64,000 bases of DNA from contig NZ_JAVDDT010000002.1 in assembly GCF_030848495.1 (NCBI RefSeq), positions 186,001 through 250,000 of the forward strand, given 5' to 3'. Shown here piece after piece: positions 3,947 through 13,113 of this stretch. This DNA comes from Natronospira bacteriovora. GTDB lineage: Bacteria; Pseudomonadota; Gammaproteobacteria; Natronospirales; Natronospiraceae. Under the pieces are notes generated by a model. The model was given only the letters and a program-made list of their open reading frames with translations, was not told the DNA's origin and made no database searches. How positions within the stretch are numbered: position 1 is the first letter of the stretch; the number at the start of each line of letters is the position of its first letter. The position numbers and the translations under genes are program-made.

Positions 3947-4333
3947 CTAGAACAGAAGGGCGAGCAGGCCGCCGGCCTGCTTGCTGAAGGCAATGGCCAT
4001 GGTCTGGACGAACAGCAGCACGGCCAGGAAGAACAGGCCCCAGCGCAGGCTGCCCGCCCCGGCCCGGAAAGCGGCGATGCCCACCCCGATGTAGGCGGCA
4101 ACGAACAGCAGCTTGAGCAGCATCCAGCCTTGCGTGAGGAAGGCCCAGCCGGTCATGCCCAACAGGACGATACCGCTCAGCAACAGCAGGGTATCCAGCA
4201 CATGCGGGGCAATTTTCGCGAAGCGGTTGGCCGGTTTCTCGCCAGTGACCAGCAGCCAGCCACCCCGCAGCATGAAACCGAGGATGCTCAACAGGGCTAG
4301 GGTCATGTGCAGATGCTTGATGCCCATATACAT
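3947..4333 (-). CDS. SirB2-like membrane protein
   Basis: This 128-residue protein has four hydrophobic segments and matches the SirB/SirB2 family, with the typical MGIKHLHM start, a PHVLDTLLLLSG core helix and a final QTMAIAFSKQ segment. The Salmonella family name comes from an early link to invasion-gene expression, but its biochemical role is not known. An AAGGAG motif lies upstream of the ATG. The gene points away from the DnaA-box-rich gap immediately upstream. Confidence 0.8.
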   Translation of the reverse strand: MYMGIKHLHMTLALLSILGFMLRGGWLLVTGEKPANRFAKIAPHVLDTLLLLSGIVLLGMTGWAFLTQGWMLLKLLFVAAYIGVGIAAFRAGAGSLRWGLFFLAVLLFVQTMAIAFSKQAGGLLALLF

Positions 4334-4443
4334 GGTGAAAACTCCTTCGAAAAAGGCTTGACAGAATGCTGTTGCGTTGTGGCGACAATGGCCAACGATT
4401 GCTCATTCCAGGGCGTGGGCCGATGATTGGCCGCCCTGGCGCT

Positions 4444-4930
4444 TTATGCACAGGGATATCCACAGATATTGTGGATGAACCGTGTACCGATGGTATCTGA
4501 ACCGCCCGCCCCGGGGCAGTTTCCCGCTTTCCGGTCAACCATCCTCCACAATATACGTTAACCATGCACAGGGGCGATCCCCACCGTGAATGTCATGGCG
4601 AGAATGTATCCGTTGAGCCTCGCGTGTTGTTGCACACCGGCGACATCAGACACCCGCCGACAGGCCTGTCATGCTGGTGAAATAATGCCCATTTCGGTGG
4701 ATGCCTTATCGACTCGAAGGTCCGGTCGGATTATTCACAAGCTTATCCACAGAATCTGTGGAAACTTGTACAACAGGCCGTTATTGCGGTTGGGCCGGTG
4801 GTAATTGAGCGTGGTCGCCGTGAGCAAGCCAGGACAGCTTCTTAGGGGCTATTGTTCATAAAGAGTTTCGTTTTTTTACCGAAGCCGTTATTTTCAGTCA
4901 ATTTTTCCTGAGTTTGAGCTACTATTGGGC
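4444..4930. other. DnaA-box cluster with AT-rich flank: candidate replication origin or DnaA-binding locus
   Basis: This lies in a 730-bp gap (4334-5066) with no convincing gene. Exact TTWTNCACA boxes occur at 4444-4452, 4731-4739 and 4743-4751. One-mismatch boxes occur at 4456-4464, 4470-4478 (reverse), 4628-4636 and 4757-4765 (reverse); weaker ones are at 4542-4550 and 4562-4570. Two blocks share one layout: two forward boxes three bases apart, then an inverted box. In the second block TCCACAGA-A-TCTGTGGA (4746-4762) is a perfect inverted repeat. An AT-rich stretch with T-runs follows at about 4847-4930. dnaA, dnaN, rpmH, gidA and par genes are not in the window, so a DnaA-titration or regulatory locus is the main alternative. 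Confidence 0.55.
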
Positions 4931-5066
4931 TGCAGGTAACAAATTCAGGCCGGATGATCTCCGTTCAGGGGAGTGTCCGGTTTTTCCTGCTCCATCGGCA
5001 AGCTGGCCGCGCGGCACTGGTTTTCGCGGCCAGACTTGACCGGGTGCGGGCCGCTGGAGCGATGCA

Positions 5067-7571
5067 ATGGATTCAGCTTCCGGAACGCTGCGCATGGCCG
5101 TTGCCGCCGTACAGGCGAGGCAGGCCCGTGTGCAGCGAGGTCTGAAGCAACATTTCGAGAACGCGAGGGACTGGCTCAGGGAGCAGCCGGCGCCTGCTTT
5201 CCGACACCTGCTTTTCTGGATCATCGTGGCCGTTGCCATTCCCACCACCGCCTGGTTTCTGACTGCGGCGTGGATTGCCCATGACCGCTACCAGACGGTC
5301 CGTTCCATGAATTACACCGGGCAGCTGGCCGATTTCGCTCTCGCCGGAAATCGCCTGATCCATGCCCTGCAGCTGGAACGTAGCCTCTCTGCGGCCCATC
5401 TTGTGGAAGGCGACCCCTTCTTCTCGGTCCGGCTTGCCGAGGCGCGTCAGGAAACGTCCCGGCACATGCGACAGGTTCAGCATCAGATGCTCAACCTGCC
5501 GGCGGCGCCGCTGACCAGGCAGCTGGACAACTGCATGCAGGAAGTTCGTGGCGTGGAGGAGCGTCTTCAGAGCCTTCGCCACAACATCAATCTCGGTCAT
5601 CTGACGGTCATGGAAGGTGTGGATGGCCTGAGCATCGTCATCGAGGATATTCACGCCTGCCTGTCGGTGGTGGAGCAGGCCAGCAATGAATCCGCCATTA
5701 CCCAGCGCCTGCGGACGCTGCGGGCCTTCGCTGCCTACAAGGATTTTGCCGATCTGGAACGCAGTTATGGTACCGCCCTGCTGGCAGCGGGTATCCCTGA
5801 TCCTGGTGTCTATCGTCAGTTCCTGCACCATGCCGAGCTTCAGGCACCCTACGCACGACGCATCCTGACGGAACAGGATTCGGGGCTGGAGAAGGCCCTC
5901 GGGTATGTGCATGACAGTGAGGTGGAACAGCGCCTGCACGACCTCCGCACGGTGATGACCCAGGCCATTGACGGGCGGAGTGATGCAAACCGCAATGCGC
6001 TGCCGGTTCCGGAAGTCTGGTTTGCCGTTGCCAGCGATCGCCTGGAAGCCTTGCATCAGGCCGAGCGCATGCTGATGGACAAGCTCTCGTCCACGGTGGC
6101 GGGAATTGATGCTTCCGCACGTCAGGATCTGCAGCGGGTGCTGGCCGCCTTCGGTGTCACTGCCCTGGCCGTGCCGCTGTTATCCCTGGGCATCGCCGCC
6201 GGTGTTGGCCGTCGTATTCGCCTGGAGCGTCGTCAGAACCGCAATATCCGCTTTCTGGCAACCCGGGACTTTCTCACCGGTCTCTACAATCGGCGTCGTT
6301 TCGACGAGGTGGCCAGACGGGTCATCGCCAAGGCTCGGCGATATGACCGCAAGGCCGCTCTGCTGATCATCGATCTGCACCGTTTCACGGACATCAACCA
6401 TATCTGGGGTGAGGCCGTGGGCGACGCCGTGCTGCGCGAGACGGCCAGCCGTCTCAAGGTCGTCGCCGGACGTCATGCCCTCATCGCGCGAACCTACGGC
6501 GATGAATTTTCCATTCTGCTGCCTGATTGCAACGATCATGTGGAGGCGGAAGTGCAGGCCCGGCAGATCATGGCCGTGTTCAGTGCGCCCTTCGACCTGG
6601 AACACCGCTCCATCAATATTCAGGCAAGCGGGGGTGGTGCCGTTTTCCCGGATGATGGCAGTGACCAGGAAGAAATGATGGTGGCCGCCCGCCTTGCCCG
6701 GGACGTGGCCAAGGAGTCCAGCAGCGACAGCTTCCATTTCTTCTCTGCCGGAATGTATGAACGTTTCGAATACCAGGTGGTGATCGAGGAGGGCCTGAAA
6801 CAGGCGCTGAGCAACAAGGAATTCGAGGTCTACTATCAACCTCGTTTGCGCCTGCCGGATCAGAAGCTGGTTGCCGTGGAAGCGTTGGTGCGATGGAATC
6901 ACCCGGCTCTCGGTCAGGTCAATCCGGAGGATTTCGTTCCCGTTGCCGAGGCCAACGGCAGCATCGTCCGCATTGGTCGCTGGGTGCTTGAGGAGGCCTG
7001 CCGTCGTGCCGTGGATTGGCAGCGGGACGGCTTGCCGGACTTGCGGGTCTCGGTCAATCTCTCGGCTGTGCAGTTCCACCAGTCCGACATCATTGCCGAC
7101 GTGACCCGTGCACTGGAGAAGAGCGGGCTTCCGGCTGACCGGCTCGAGCTGGAGCTGACCGAAACCGCCGTCATGGCCGACATTGATCAGAGTGCCGAGA
7201 TCCTCCTCAAGCTGCGTGAGCTGGGCGTGATGCTCTCCATTGATGACTTCGGTACCGGATACAGCTCGCTCAGTTATCTGCAGCGATTCCCGGTTCAGCA
7301 GCTCAAGCTCGACAAGAGTTTTGTCCATGGCCTGCCCCAGGATGCCGATGCCGTTGCCATTGCCCGAACCATCATCAACTTGAGCCAGGGGCTTAACCGT
7401 GAAGTGGTGGCCGAAGGGGTCGAGAATGCCGAGCAGGCACAATTCCTGAGTGAGGCCGGCTGCAAGGAAGGGCAGGGCTATTACTTCAGCAAACCATTGA
7501 CGGCCCGTGAGCTGAGCGCCTTCGCCAGCGAAAAATCCAATCTGCCTGCCGAATCGGGATCCGGTTACTGA
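5067..7571 (+). CDS. NIT-sensor GGDEF-EAL protein, probable c-di-GMP phosphodiesterase
   Basis: The 834-residue protein has a membrane helix at about residues 50-72, a periplasmic region, and a second helix near 355-377. GGDEF and EAL domains follow. The periplasmic segment NRLIHALQLERSLSAAHL resembles the nitrate/nitrite-sensing NIT domain. The cyclase signature is YGDEF (residues 477-481), and the I-site position is not RxxD, so cyclase activity is doubtful. The EAL domain keeps its catalytic set: EALVRW (Glu605), NLSAVQFH, ELTETAVM, DDFGTGYS (Asp726-727), KLDKSFV and VAEGVE. It should hydrolyse c-di-GMP, perhaps tuned by the degenerate GGDEF. GGAG lies seven bases before the ATG. An in-frame ATG at 5094 is an alternative start. 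Confidence 0.9.
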   Translation: MDSASGTLRMAVAAVQARQARVQRGLKQHFENARDWLREQPAPAFRHLLFWIIVAVAIPTTAWFLTAAWIAHDRYQTVRSMNYTGQLADFALAGNRLIHALQLERSLSAAHLVEGDPFFSVRLAEARQETSRHMRQVQHQMLNLPAAPLTRQLDNCMQEVRGVEERLQSLRHNINLGHLTVMEGVDGLSIVIEDIHACLSVVEQASNESAITQRLRTLRAFAAYKDFADLERSYGTALLAAGIPDPGVYRQFLHHAELQAPYARRILTEQDSGLEKALGYVHDSEVEQRLHDLRTVMTQAIDGRSDANRNALPVPEVWFAVASDRLEALHQAERMLMDKLSSTVAGIDASARQDLQRVLAAFGVTALAVPLLSLGIAAGVGRRIRLERRQNRNIRFLATRDFLTGLYNRRRFDEVARRVIAKARRYDRKAALLIIDLHRFTDINHIWGEAVGDAVLRETASRLKVVAGRHALIARTYGDEFSILLPDCNDHVEAEVQARQIMAVFSAPFDLEHRSINIQASGGGAVFPDDGSDQEEMMVAARLARDVAKESSSDSFHFFSAGMYERFEYQVVIEEGLKQALSNKEFEVYYQPRLRLPDQKLVAVEALVRWNHPALGQVNPEDFVPVAEANGSIVRIGRWVLEEACRRAVDWQRDGLPDLRVSVNLSAVQFHQSDIIADVTRALEKSGLPADRLELELTETAVMADIDQSAEILLKLRELGVMLSIDDFGTGYSSLSYLQRFPVQQLKLDKSFVHGLPQDADAVAIARTIINLSQGLNREVVAEGVENAEQAQFLSEAGCKEGQGYYFSKPLTARELSAFASEKSNLPAESGSGY

Positions 7572-7651: not shown

Positions 7652-9463
7652 TCAGCCCGCCAATCGCTCGGCCAGGCCGGAATGGCGGCGGGTCTGGCGG
7701 CCGATGGCGGCACGCAGGATGTCTTCAGGGCCGTGCAGGCTCAGGCTTTTCCTGGCGCGGGTAATGCCGGTGTAGAGCAGCTCCCGGGACAGAACCGGGG
7801 TATCCACCGCCGGCAGCAGCAGGTGCACATGCTCGAACTCCGAGCCCTGGCTCTTGTGCACCGTCATGGCGTAGACGCTGTCATGTTGGGGCAGGGCCGT
7901 GGGCAGCAGGGCGCGGGGTTGCTCGCCCGTCTGGAACCAGACCCGCCGTCGCCCGGCCTTGTCCGCCAGGCAGATGCCGATGTCGCCGTTGAACAGCCCC
8001 GCCCGGTAGTCATTGTGCTGGATGATGATGGGCCGGCCCGGATACCAGGTTTCGGCCGGGTCCAGGCCAGCTTCCCGGCAGAGACGCTCGTGGATGGCCT
8101 GGTTGAGGCTGTCGCTGCCAGTGGGGCCGACGCGGGTGGCGGTCAGCAGCTGGATCTCGCCCAACCGGGCCAGGGCGGCCACCGGGTCGCTTTCGCTGAG
8201 CAGGGGGGCATGCGCCGCCGCCACGGTTTCAACCAGGGCGTCGAGCCCGTCGCCGGCGTCCAGCCGCGCTTCGATGGCTTCCGGCGCGGCTTCCCGGATC
8301 ACGCCCATGGCCGAATCGGCATCGCCGGCGTTGACTGACGCAGCCAGTCGGCCGATGGCACTGTCGGCGGTGAAACGGTGGCTGGTCTGCAAGGTGACCA
8401 CATGATCGGCCAGCGGCGGCAAGGGCGGGTCGGCGGTGGGGGCGTCCGACTTGAGCAGGGGCGCGAAGGCCTCGCGCTGTTGGGGACCGAAACCGTTCAC
8501 GCCGGCCGCCCGGCACAGCTCGGCCAGCACCGATCCGGATTCCACCGAGGCCAGCTGGTAGCGGTCACCGAGCAGGATCAGGCGCCCATGGCGCGGCATG
8601 GCATCCACCAGCTTGGCCATCATCGGCAGGTCCACCATGGAGGCCTCGTCCACGATCACCACATCGGCATTGAGGGGGTTGTCGCGGTCATGGCGTGGCC
8701 GGGTGGTGTCACCGCGCAGGCCCAGCAGGCGGTGCAGCGTGGCGGCATCCTCCGGCAGGCTGGGCCCGAGGGCCTCGCTGTCGGGCAGATCCGCCAGGCC
8801 ATTGCGCATGGACTCCATCATGCGCGCGGCGGCCTTGCCGGTGGGGGCGGCCAGGGCGATGGTGGGCACCGGGGTCTGGCGGGCGGCGGCATCCGCGAGC
8901 AGCAGTTTGACCAGGCGCAGCACGGTGTAGGTCTTGCCGGTGCCGGGGCCGCCGGAGATCACGCAGAAGCGGTGGCGCAGGGCGGTGGCGGCCGCCACCG
9001 CCTGCCAGTGGGTCTCTTCATCGCCCACCCAGGCGTAATCAAACAGTTCGCCCTCGCGCTCCAGGGGGGCGGTGTCCACCGCCGCCGGGGCGGTGCCGAT
9101 CATGGCCTTCAGGCGTTCGGCCAGCAGGGCCTCGTATTGCCAGTAGCGATGGAGGTAGAGCCGCTCGCCCTCCAGGATAAGGGGCCGGGCTTCGCCGGGC
9201 TCGCCCACCAGCCGGCTTTCCGCCAGCGACTGGCGCCAGGCGGCCGTCTCGCAGATGGGGTTTTCCTCGGGGATCGCCGGGGGTGCCTGCTCGTCCAGCG
9301 GCAGGCAGGTATGGCCTTCGCCCACGGCCCGGTTGGCCAGCGCCAGGGCCAGTGCCACACGTTCGTCGGCACCATGGCGCAGGCCCCAATCGGCCAGGGC
9401 GGTGTCCACCGCCCGCAGCCGGCCCTCGGCGCAGGCCCGTCGCAATCGTTGGGCAAGACTCAT
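7652..9463 (-). CDS. recD: Exodeoxyribonuclease V subunit alpha (RecD helicase)
   Basis: This is the 5'-3' motor subunit of RecBCD, which resects double-strand breaks for recombination. The 603-residue length is close to E. coli RecD (608). Walker A is SGGPGTGKT (about residues 170-178), Walker B/DEAD-like is VIVDEASMVD, and the C-terminal helicase motif is AMTVHKSQGSEF. The ATG overlaps the recB stop in an ATGA (9460-9463), so translation is probably coupled. It is the last gene of the recC-recB-recD operon and converges on the EAL gene. Confidence 0.96.
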   Translation of the reverse strand: MSLAQRLRRACAEGRLRAVDTALADWGLRHGADERVALALALANRAVGEGHTCLPLDEQAPPAIPEENPICETAAWRQSLAESRLVGEPGEARPLILEGERLYLHRYWQYEALLAERLKAMIGTAPAAVDTAPLEREGELFDYAWVGDEETHWQAVAAATALRHRFCVISGGPGTGKTYTVLRLVKLLLADAAARQTPVPTIALAAPTGKAAARMMESMRNGLADLPDSEALGPSLPEDAATLHRLLGLRGDTTRPRHDRDNPLNADVVIVDEASMVDLPMMAKLVDAMPRHGRLILLGDRYQLASVESGSVLAELCRAAGVNGFGPQQREAFAPLLKSDAPTADPPLPPLADHVVTLQTSHRFTADSAIGRLAASVNAGDADSAMGVIREAAPEAIEARLDAGDGLDALVETVAAAHAPLLSESDPVAALARLGEIQLLTATRVGPTGSDSLNQAIHERLCREAGLDPAETWYPGRPIIIQHNDYRAGLFNGDIGICLADKAGRRRVWFQTGEQPRALLPTALPQHDSVYAMTVHKSQGSEFEHVHLLLPAVDTPVLSRELLYTGITRARKSLSLHGPEDILRAAIGRQTRRHSGLAERLAG

Positions 9464-12400
9464 AGCAGCACCCCCTGTTCGGGCTCAGGACGGGTTCCGG
9501 CCAGCGCCCGGTCCAGCGCCGTGATCAGCGCCGTGGGCGGCTGGTCGCTGAAGACACCGTCTGAATGTTCGCCACCGCGCATGCCCCGGAGGAAGAGATA
9601 ATGCACCCCGCCCAGGTGGGTCTCCGGTTGGTAGCCGGGCAGCCGCAGGGCCAGGTGACGGTGCAGGGCCACGCAATAGATCAGGTATTGCAGGTCGTAA
9701 TGGGCCACGCTCACCGCCTGGCGCAGTCGGGCCGGGGCGTAGTCCGCCTGGTCGGGGCCCAGGTCATTGGTCTTGTAGTCGATCACGTAATAGCGGCCGT
9801 CGGCTTCCACAATAAGGTCGATGTAGCCGTGCATGAGCCCGGCCAGGGTTTCCCGCTGGCGGGCCTCCGGCAGTTCGATGGCGTAACCGTGCCGGTGCAG
9901 CTGGTCCATGACCGTCGCCACCGATTGCCCGCCCAGGCCGAGCATGAATTCCATCTCCGCCAGTCGTTGCGTGGCCGGCACGGCGGCGAGGGGGCCGATG
10001 CCGGGCAGTTGTGTGTGCAGGCAGCGCGAGATCAGCCCGCCCACCTGTTCCAGCAGTGTCTGCCGCGCCCGGCCGTCGGGCAGGACCAGGCCGGCATCAA
10101 CTAGCTGCTTTTCCACATGGCCCTTGTGGGACTCGTCCAGAGGCTGGTCCGGGCCGGGCCAGTCGGCGAAGTCGGCCTTCTCCAGCATGTCGTGGACCGC
10201 AATACCGAAACCGGCACCGCGCAGGCCGATGTCGCCACCGGCGGCGGCCAGTTGTTCATCGGCCACTTCGTCGCCGGCGCCGGTGCCCAGTTCGGTGCCG
10301 GCGGTGGCGTGGGCCGCGCCACGCACCAGGCGTGTAAAGCTGAACACCGACCAGGGCGGCCGCGGCCGCGGCCAGTCCGAACGGGCCTCACCGGCCGGCG
10401 CCGGTGGGCGCGGGGCGCGGGCGTCCGGCGGCAGGGTGTCGGGCAGCGCCTCCAGCCGGATGGCGCCTGGCGCCTGTTCGGCCAGCACGCCCAGGCGCTC
10501 AGCGGTGCATTCGGGCGTCATCCATTTTGGCGCCTTGGTGCTGCGGTCCCGAACATCGGCACTGACCCCGTCGGCCTGGTGCAGCAGCCAGGCCAAGGCG
10601 CCGTTCTGGGCGGTGTTGATCGGGCCCCAGGGCAGGTAACAGGCCTGCTCGGCCCGGGTCAGGGCGACGTACAGCAGGCGGATCGCCTCGGCCCGGTCCT
10701 CGGCGATGGCCTGCCTGGCAGTGTCGTCGCCGGGGCCGGCCAGGAAGTCCAGGCAGGCCCGGCCCTGCTCGTCGTGGTGGAGGAAGGGTGGCTTGTCGGC
10801 CGCCCCGCCGGCGCCCAGCAGCGGCGCGAAGGGCAGCAGGACGATGCCGTACTGCAGGCCCTTGACCTTGTGCACCGTGGCGATGCGGATCAGGGCATCG
10901 TCGGATTCCAGGCGCAGTTGTCGTTCATCGTCGCCGCTATCCCCGCCGGGGTCTTCGATCATGCGGTGGAGCCAGTCAATCAGCCCGTCCGGGCCGAATT
11001 GCTCGCCACTGGCCTGCTGCAGCAGCTCGGCCAGCTGCAGGTAATTGCTCATGCGCCGCTCACCATCCTCCAGGGCCAGCAGACGCGGGGCCTCGTCCTG
11101 CAGCAGGGGCTGCAGCATGGCCAGTACCCCGGCCTGCCGCCAGGCTTCGTGGGCCTGCTGGAAACGGGCGGTGACCTGGCGCCATGCCTCTTCGTCCTCC
11201 GCCAGCCGGATCAGGTCACCCAGGCGGTGGCCCAGGAGTGGCGTGGCCAGGGCCGCCCGCAGGGCGTCCTCGTCGGCGGGGGTGGCCGTGGCCTGGAGCA
11301 GGCGCAGCAGGTGCTCGGCTTCCTCGCTGGCAAACACGCTCTGCTGGTGCAGGCAGACCGCGGCGATGCCGCGCCGGCTCAAGGCCTGTTGCACGGCCGC
11401 CGCCTGGTCATTGGTATTGACCAGCACGGCAATGTCGGCCGGCGCCAGGGGGCGGGGCGCTTCCCTTGCCTTCACCACCTCGCAGCGCCCGTCCAGCAGC
11501 TGATGGATCTGGTGCACGGTGGCATCGATCAGGCGGGGCTCGGCGTTCTTCTTGGGCAGGGCTTCGTCCATCCGCCACAGGGTCATGGCCGGCAGGGGCT
11601 CGCCGTCGCGGCGGATCTCCCGGTCGCCGGCCTTGCGTCCGGCCTTGACCGGCTGAAAGCGAATATCCTCGATCACGAAGGCCTGTTCGCCACCGGCGCG
11701 AAAGACCGTTTCCACCGCATCCAGCACGGACTGGGTGGAGCGGAAGTTGGTGTCCAGGTGATAGCGGGCATCGGCGTCCCGCACTGCCTGCAGATAGGCG
11801 AAGACATCCCCGCCACGGAAACCGTAGATGGCCTGCTTGGGGTCACCGATCATCAACAGCCCGCCACGCTCGCGTTCCCGGTAGATGCGGCGCAGGATGG
11901 CGTACTGCAGCGGGTCGGTGTCCTGGAACTCATCCACCAGGGCCCAGGGCCAGGTGCTGTGCAGGGAGTCGGCCAGGGCTGGCCCGCCCTGTTCATCATG
12001 AATGGCCTCCGACAGGCCGGTGATCATGTCATTGAAACTGTACTTGCGGCGTTCCCGCTTGCGGGCCAGGACCGTTTCCCGGACGTGTGCCAGGGCCTCG
12101 CGCAAGGCGCCCAGGCGGCCCAGGGGCTGGACCTCGGCCAGAGCCCGGCTCAGTGCCAGCTCCTGGGGCCGGAACCAGCTCTCGGCGGGTTTTTTCTTGC
12201 ACAGCGCCCGCACGCCCTCATCCGAGCCCAGTTGCACCAGCCAGTCAGGCAGGCCCACATGCCCGTTCGCGGTGCCCATGACACCGGCGCCAATCTGGCT
12301 GGCCAGTTCCCCGGCGCCACCGGCCCGCTGCAGGGCAGTTTCCAGGCTCTTTTTCTTGAGAAAGGCCTGCTCGGCCTCGCATTGCTCGAGCAGCTCGGCG

Positions 12401-13113
12401 AGCCTCTCGCCTTCGGCTTCCCAGAGACGGCGGGCCCTGGCGGTGAGCTTGTCGATGCGGGCCGGGTCCGGTCCGGTGAGGCTCACATGCGGCTTTCTCA
12501 GGACCGGCTCCAGATCCTTTTTCAGCGCTTCCGGGTCGGGCCAGAGCTGCAGAAAGGCCAGGGCCTGGTCAGCGGGACGGCCCACCACCTGGCCGCGCCA
12601 GTAATCGCTGATCACCTCGGTGAACAGGGGTTGGTCGTCCACCTGTTCACCCCGGTCGAAGGGCAGGGCGCTGTCGAAGGCATTTTCCGCGGCGGCCTGC
12701 TGGGCGAAGCCGTGGATGGTGCTGATGGTGGCCTCGTCCATGCGCGCGGCGGATTCACGCAAGTGGCGGATCACGGCTTCCCGCCCCCGTTGGCCGGCCA
12801 CCCGCTCAATGATGGTCAGGGCGAATTGCTGTTCGTGATCGTCGTCTTCGGCCGAGTCCGGGTCCATGGCCAGCCGGGCGGCCTGGCCCAGGCGGGCGCG
12901 AATGCGTTCCCGCAGCTCCTGGGTGGCGGCACGGGTAAAGGTCATGACCAGAATCTCGCGCACCGACAGCCACTGCTCCAGCAGCAGGCGCAGGTAAAGC
13001 CCGGCCAGGCTGAAGGTCTTGCCGGTGCCGGCGCTGGCCTCGATCAGGCGCAGGCCATGCAGCGGCACCGTGGCCGCGTCGAAACGCTCCCATTGCGGTT
13101 CGCGCCGGCTCAT
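9460..13113 (-). CDS. recB: Exodeoxyribonuclease V subunit beta (RecB helicase/nuclease)
   Basis: RecB is the 3'-5' helicase and the nuclease of RecBCD. It is 1217 residues long (E. coli 1180). The N-terminal UvrD-like helicase has Walker A EASAGTGKT (about residues 25-33), VMTFTRAAT, LVDEFQDTDPLQ and GDPKQAIYGFRG. The C-terminal nuclease has the catalytic VIDYKTND motif near residue 1090, so the nuclease should be active. Its ATG overlaps the recC stop (13110-13113) and its stop overlaps the recD start. The ptrA gene that separates recC and recB in E. coli is absent. Confidence 0.96.
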   Translation of the reverse strand: MSRREPQWERFDAATVPLHGLRLIEASAGTGKTFSLAGLYLRLLLEQWLSVREILVMTFTRAATQELRERIRARLGQAARLAMDPDSAEDDDHEQQFALTIIERVAGQRGREAVIRHLRESAARMDEATISTIHGFAQQAAAENAFDSALPFDRGEQVDDQPLFTEVISDYWRGQVVGRPADQALAFLQLWPDPEALKKDLEPVLRKPHVSLTGPDPARIDKLTARARRLWEAEGERLAELLEQCEAEQAFLKKKSLETALQRAGGAGELASQIGAGVMGTANGHVGLPDWLVQLGSDEGVRALCKKKPAESWFRPQELALSRALAEVQPLGRLGALREALAHVRETVLARKRERRKYSFNDMITGLSEAIHDEQGGPALADSLHSTWPWALVDEFQDTDPLQYAILRRIYRERERGGLLMIGDPKQAIYGFRGGDVFAYLQAVRDADARYHLDTNFRSTQSVLDAVETVFRAGGEQAFVIEDIRFQPVKAGRKAGDREIRRDGEPLPAMTLWRMDEALPKKNAEPRLIDATVHQIHQLLDGRCEVVKAREAPRPLAPADIAVLVNTNDQAAAVQQALSRRGIAAVCLHQQSVFASEEAEHLLRLLQATATPADEDALRAALATPLLGHRLGDLIRLAEDEEAWRQVTARFQQAHEAWRQAGVLAMLQPLLQDEAPRLLALEDGERRMSNYLQLAELLQQASGEQFGPDGLIDWLHRMIEDPGGDSGDDERQLRLESDDALIRIATVHKVKGLQYGIVLLPFAPLLGAGGAADKPPFLHHDEQGRACLDFLAGPGDDTARQAIAEDRAEAIRLLYVALTRAEQACYLPWGPINTAQNGALAWLLHQADGVSADVRDRSTKAPKWMTPECTAERLGVLAEQAPGAIRLEALPDTLPPDARAPRPPAPAGEARSDWPRPRPPWSVFSFTRLVRGAAHATAGTELGTGAGDEVADEQLAAAGGDIGLRGAGFGIAVHDMLEKADFADWPGPDQPLDESHKGHVEKQLVDAGLVLPDGRARQTLLEQVGGLISRCLHTQLPGIGPLAAVPATQRLAEMEFMLGLGGQSVATVMDQLHRHGYAIELPEARQRETLAGLMHGYIDLIVEADGRYYVIDYKTNDLGPDQADYAPARLRQAVSVAHYDLQYLIYCVALHRHLALRLPGYQPETHLGGVHYLFLRGMRGGEHSDGVFSDQPPTALITALDRALAGTRPEPEQGVLL

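Follow-up and report, generated by a model that had tools for sequence, protein, structure and literature searches.

A putative tandem pair of DARS-type DnaA-reactivating sequences beside a sirB2-like gene in Natronospira

We have studied a cluster of DnaA boxes in Natronospira bacteriovora, a soda-lake bacterium of the order Natronospirales of the Gammaproteobacteria. We conclude, with a probability of about 70%, that this cluster is a tandem pair of DARS-type sequences, which reactivate DnaA. The window is the whole stretch of 64,000 nt that was analysed (G000:C2:186001-250000, where G000 is this genome; G001 and G002 are the other members of the genus), and positions given without a contig refer to it. 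The cluster is found in a gene-free gap of 733 bp (4334-5066, defined by open reading frames and Pfam), which houses both cores. On one side of the gap there is a sirB2-like gene on the minus strand (3947-4333; PF04247, E = 1.6e-32), which accompanies the cores throughout the genus. On the other side there is a NIT-GGDEF-EAL gene on the plus strand (5067-7571; PF08376, PF00990, PF00563). The flanking genes thus diverge from the gap, contrary to a preliminary description of this DNA. Elsewhere in the window, ARAGORN gives a tRNA-Gln of 97 nt at 10572-10668, probably a false positive, since it falls within a recB-like reading frame (9460-13113) of the opposite strand. Short-period repeats are found at about 1590-1860, past an S49 peptidase gene, where an antisense reading frame contains RCRCRCRC and RLRLRLRL runs.

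Three boxes in the gap agree exactly with TTWTNCACA, at 4444 (+), 4731 (+) and 4743 (+), and five have one mismatch, at 4456 (+), 4470 (-), 4628 (+), 4757 (-) and 4853 (-). The preliminary description had reported three exact boxes, at least four with one mismatch and a density far above chance, and all of this is borne out. In 1000 dinucleotide shuffles of the gap the mean number of exact boxes is 0.063 and none reaches three; with up to one mismatch the mean is 1.09, against the eight present, a number which no shuffle reaches. The two blocks of equal layout which had been noticed there are also confirmed: two forward boxes 3 bp apart are followed after 5 bp by an inverted box, each block with 2 mismatches over 26 fixed bases. 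Core 1 (4444-4478, plus strand) has boxes at 4444-4452 (+, similar to box III of E. coli DARS1 and DARS2), 4456-4464 (+, similar to box II) and 4470-4478 (-, similar to box I); the last two have one mismatch each. Core 2 (4731-4765, plus strand) has boxes at 4731-4739 (+), 4743-4751 (+) and 4757-4765 (-). The cores are in tandem, 287 bp apart. The one-mismatch box TGTTGCACA (4628-4636, +) is additional to them, 103 bp upstream of core 2. This layout has no match in 100 shuffles of the whole window, and the best match in 300 shuffles of the gap has at least 9 mismatches. The shuffles, together with the reversed-pattern controls described below, rule out a chance origin of the cluster.

Each core has a candidate site for Fis on its upstream side. 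The first one, GGCCAACGATTGCTC (4390-4404), agrees exactly with the consensus GNNYANNNNNTRNNC and lies 54 bp upstream of core 1. The second one, GGTGAAATAATGCCC (4676-4690), has one mismatch and lies 55 bp upstream of core 2. No IHF site with up to one mismatch is found in the gap 4334-5066; regulation of the DARS2 type is therefore not supported at this locus.

In E. coli, DARS1 and DARS2 turn ADP-DnaA back to ATP-DnaA. Their core consists of three uniquely arranged boxes: boxes I and II are opposed, ADP-DnaA binds to them head to head and ADP is released (PMC8682772; PMC4245941). Release of ADP needs the core, and in DARS2 it also needs IHF and Fis. In E. coli MG1655 the DARS1 core, read on the minus strand, is TAATACACA-TGG-TTATCCACA-GGAAT-AGTGGATAA and that of DARS2 is TTCTTCACA-ACT-CTATCCACA-GAAAA-GGTGAATAA. 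Both blocks of the window have the same box order, orientation and 3/5 spacing as these two cores: three boxes, with I and II inverted and III beside II. They share with DARS1, found between bioD and uvrB, the lack of a clear IHF site and the location in a non-coding gap, but they differ from it in being a tandem pair, each member with its own Fis-like site. A likeness to DARS2, found between rppH and mutH, may lie in the candidate Fis-type sites near the cores. However, DARS2 has the order core-IHF-Fis, with IHF at -71 and -87 and Fis at -125, whereas the window lacks IHF sites between core and Fis (up to one mismatch in the gap) and has its Fis-like sites at -54 and -55. Neither of the two E. 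coli locations, bioD-uvrB and rppH-mutH, is that of the window locus, which is placed between sirB2 and the NIT-GGDEF-EAL gene near the terminus. In another genome a match to the core only (L138, G149:C1:388382-388416) adjoins uvrB, which is also the neighbour of DARS1 in E. coli.

We searched for the layout with up to 3 mismatches over the 26 fixed bases, using the reversed pattern as a control. This genome has four cores: the two at the sirB2 locus, one at C5:2142, about 35 bp before priA, and one at C6:111395, about 190 bp before rpmE. The layout is present in all three members of the genus, in 14 of 19 genomes of the order and in 139 of 184 of the class Gammaproteobacteria; the reversed pattern has no match in this genome nor in the genus, order or class samples. 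In a sample of the phylum, by a hand count from the table, about 43 of 64 members of the class and 48 of 135 other genomes have it; the latter belong mostly to a few families (f172, f176 and f180). A positive control is provided by matches in this sample such as TAATACACAAGGTTATCCACAGGAATAGTGGATAA, which differ very little from E. coli DARS1. With any length of 1 to 10 bp allowed for both gaps between boxes, the spacing was (3,5) in 140 of the 150 matches listed, and the second gap was 5 bp in 149. A generic cluster of boxes is ruled out by this constancy. The core is not found in the priA-rpmE gap of E. coli, so that placement at priA or rpmE is not universal. Outside the class, the layout is frequent in family f172 (G233 and others), with up to nine cores per genome, and most other sampled families outside the class have none. 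Tandem cores 400-500 bp apart are found in other genomes (G071:C122:3896/4388, G180:C1:2379301/2379702, G191:C122:4451/4875 and G347:C1:5094449/5094914): the arrangement is not unique to this genus.

In many loci the core belongs to a larger element whose geometry is fixed. With positions numbered from the core's first base, the element has a Fis consensus at precisely -66; an IHF consensus (TAANNNNTTGATW) lies at -97 to -99 and the outermost part, a DnaA box without mismatch, at -176 to -179. Examples are L003:1975-2176 (priA), L004:5218-5430 (rpmE) and class loci L032-L061 and L131-L170. The geometry was first noticed on the loci of the order and on the first class loci, and it was then tested on 40 unused class loci. 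Among these, 17 have Fis at -64 to -68, 26 have IHF at -95 to -101, 28 have the outer box at -165 to -182 and 26 have two or more of the three. Shifting the frame in 165 ways on these loci gives mean numbers of 0.21 for Fis, 0.08 for IHF, 0.01 for the outer box and 0.00 for two or more. The class sample contains about 150 families and its loci are related by descent, so that these counts cannot be treated as independent trials. A profile derived from the first set of loci matches 32 of the 40, with matches that begin within its first 30 positions and reach the core. The most frequent neighbours are priA, in 13 of the 40, and rpmE, in six. E. coli DARS2 differs from this class-wide element by the opposite order of Fis and IHF: in the same frame it has IHF at -71 and -87, 3 bp apart as published, and Fis at -125. 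For E. coli DARS1 (L011:2107-2319) this frame shows a match to IHF with two mismatches at -99 and a DnaA box with one mismatch at -177, faintly reminiscent of a worn copy of the element.

The form found at sirB2 is conserved within the genus. A core lies beside sirB2 in the three members, but the gene on the other flank differs: the NIT-GGDEF-EAL gene is not kept in G001 or G002. G001 has one core and G002 has two, 129 bp apart, one of them with 5 mismatches; in 800 kb of samples of G002 the background starts at 8 mismatches, save one other site with 5. A Fis-like site at -54 or -55 accompanies each of the five cores at the sirB2 loci; two of them are exact and three have one mismatch. These sites are 11-12 bp, that is, one helical turn, nearer to the core than -66. 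The sites were compared by position, since MAFFT aligned the three sirB2 gaps poorly outside the cores. The IHF site and the outer box of the common element were not found at the sirB2 loci. Nevertheless, a profile built without the sirB2 loci matches those of G002 (3.3e-11) and G001 (2.3e-8), as well as core 2 of the window (4.3e-6, at 4674-4764) and core 1 (4e-4, core only). The sirB2 form shares with the priA and rpmE elements the core and a Fis-like site; in the window it differs from them by its duplication, besides the nearer Fis-like site and the missing IHF site and outer box. Given the partial match to the profile without these two sites, it is best regarded as a relative of the common element in shortened form. 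A SirB2 homologue with 80% identity is found in the metagenome-assembled genome Natronospira sp. CSSed10_283R1 (PWMQ01000074.1). The genes for Hda and Fis are present in the three genomes of the genus, and DnaA is 63% identical to that of E. coli.

We infer that the cores bind DnaA and Fis, exchange nucleotide and influence the timing of initiation. A pair of ADP-DnaA molecules would face each other head to head on the inverted boxes of each core, which are 5 bp apart, and the box 3 bp further out would bind one more. This arrangement would loosen ADP, as in E. coli DARS; the resulting apo-DnaA could reload ATP and initiate replication anew. In growing cells a Fis dimer may assist, bound roughly one helical turn closer to the core than in the common element. 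The fuller relatives at priA and rpmE and the tandem pair on the terminus side would share the work of recharging. In E. coli transcription across DARS lowers its activity (PMC5010248), and the position between divergent genes may keep transcription away from the cores. DARS is also less effective near the terminus, whereas datA moved to the terminus regains its function when it is present twice (PMC5010248). By analogy with datA only, duplication of the core could offset the low copy number near the terminus.

The cores might instead be mainly promoter elements, on which DnaA works as a transcription factor to control sirB2, the NIT-GGDEF-EAL gene or both. Core 1 lies 110 bp upstream of the start codon of sirB2, the constant neighbour in the genus, and its relatives are 35 bp (priA) and about 190 bp (rpmE) upstream of their genes. 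However, throughout the class the element adjoins many unrelated genes at distances from core to start codon which range from 35 to 300 bp, and the E. coli DARS cores share the layout but are not known for promoter control. We consider that such a main role is unlikely.

A plain sink, which would bind DnaA and delay initiation, or a sink similar to datA, which also stimulates hydrolysis of DnaA-bound ATP with IHF, appears still less probable. The density of boxes agrees with titration, and in E. coli a large share of the titration of DnaA by the chromosome has been ascribed to DARS1, DARS2 and datA taken together (PMC12371093). But the strict 3/5 spacing exceeds the needs of a sink and the terminus side is a poor place for one acting after initiation. 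The window cluster is similar to datA as a group of DnaA boxes away from oriC; datA itself, whose boxes surround an IHF site, is ruled out by its different box layout and by the lack of an IHF site (up to one mismatch) in the gap, which datA needs (PMC10380432). The preliminary description had suggested a second DnaA-binding locus like datA: a second locus is indeed supported, but its three-box cores are of the DARS type.

The same description had proposed oriC, while noting that dnaA, dnaN and rpmH are not near the cluster. They are all found on another contig (G000:C4), where rpmH and dnaN adjoin dnaA and there are exact boxes between dnaA and dnaN, as the comparison it had recommended now reveals. 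Another of its checks, the GC skew, gives a positive value on both sides of the cluster with no change at the site. KOPS (GGGNAGGG) are biased to the plus strand of C2 until a flip at about 510-540 kb; we place the terminus at this flip of skew and KOPS, 320-350 kb past the cluster. In G002 dnaA is at C2:840 kb, with a minus-to-plus change of skew near C2:900-1000 kb, and the plus-to-minus flip of the terminus is at about 820-880 kb of C1. The sirB2 core of G002 is at C1:1,102,671, therefore 220-280 kb from this flip. Provided that the large contigs of G002 are joined in the way the skew indicates, this core would be about 0.45 genome lengths from dnaA. Given the known location of oriC in E. 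coli, DARS1 and DARS2 are about 0.33 and 0.21 genome lengths away from it; the window locus, beside sirB2 near the terminus, is unlike DARS1 with its distance of roughly a third of the genome. The several boxes near modestly T-rich DNA have practically no chance of being a chromosomal or second origin: they lie neither beside dnaA-dnaN nor at a skew minimum, and the AT-rich stretch reported there is present but weak (at most 58% AT per 60 bp, at 4876-4935), with no strongly AT-rich unwinding element.

Besides the lack of an IHF site with up to one mismatch, further points count against a tandem pair of DARS-type sequences. The genome position is unlike that of E. coli DARS1 and DARS2 and is near the terminus, where DARS of E. 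coli is less effective, and core 1 fits the profile on the core alone, with one mismatch in each of boxes II and I. A tentative history, which we hold possible but somewhat doubtful, would make the Fis (-66), IHF (-98) and DnaA box (-177) element the ancestral gammaproteobacterial DARS. DARS1 and DARS2 would then be derived, and the sirB2 form would be IHF-less and late-replicating, its duplication offsetting the low dosage of the terminus.

Sequences similar to DARS1 and DARS2 have been described at similar genome positions in E. coli-like species, where DARS2 is conserved (PMC4245941), and more loosely in many proteobacteria (PMC5010248; PMC4245941; PMC10380432). A literature search, with the original DARS papers outside its reach, gave neither a DnaA-Fis-IHF element at priA or rpmE nor a tandem DARS on the terminus side, which is not proof of novelty. 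The timing of replication through ATP-DnaA has been worked out almost only in E. coli. Our data indicate that most of the class has a DARS core, in most cases as part of a DnaA-Fis-IHF element whose constant spacing is unlike that of DARS2, and that the genome positions of these cores vary widely. Many species are now open to testing whether recharging of ATP-DnaA is general and whether its place on the chromosome determines the timing. The window locus offers a natural case of two tandem cores near the terminus.
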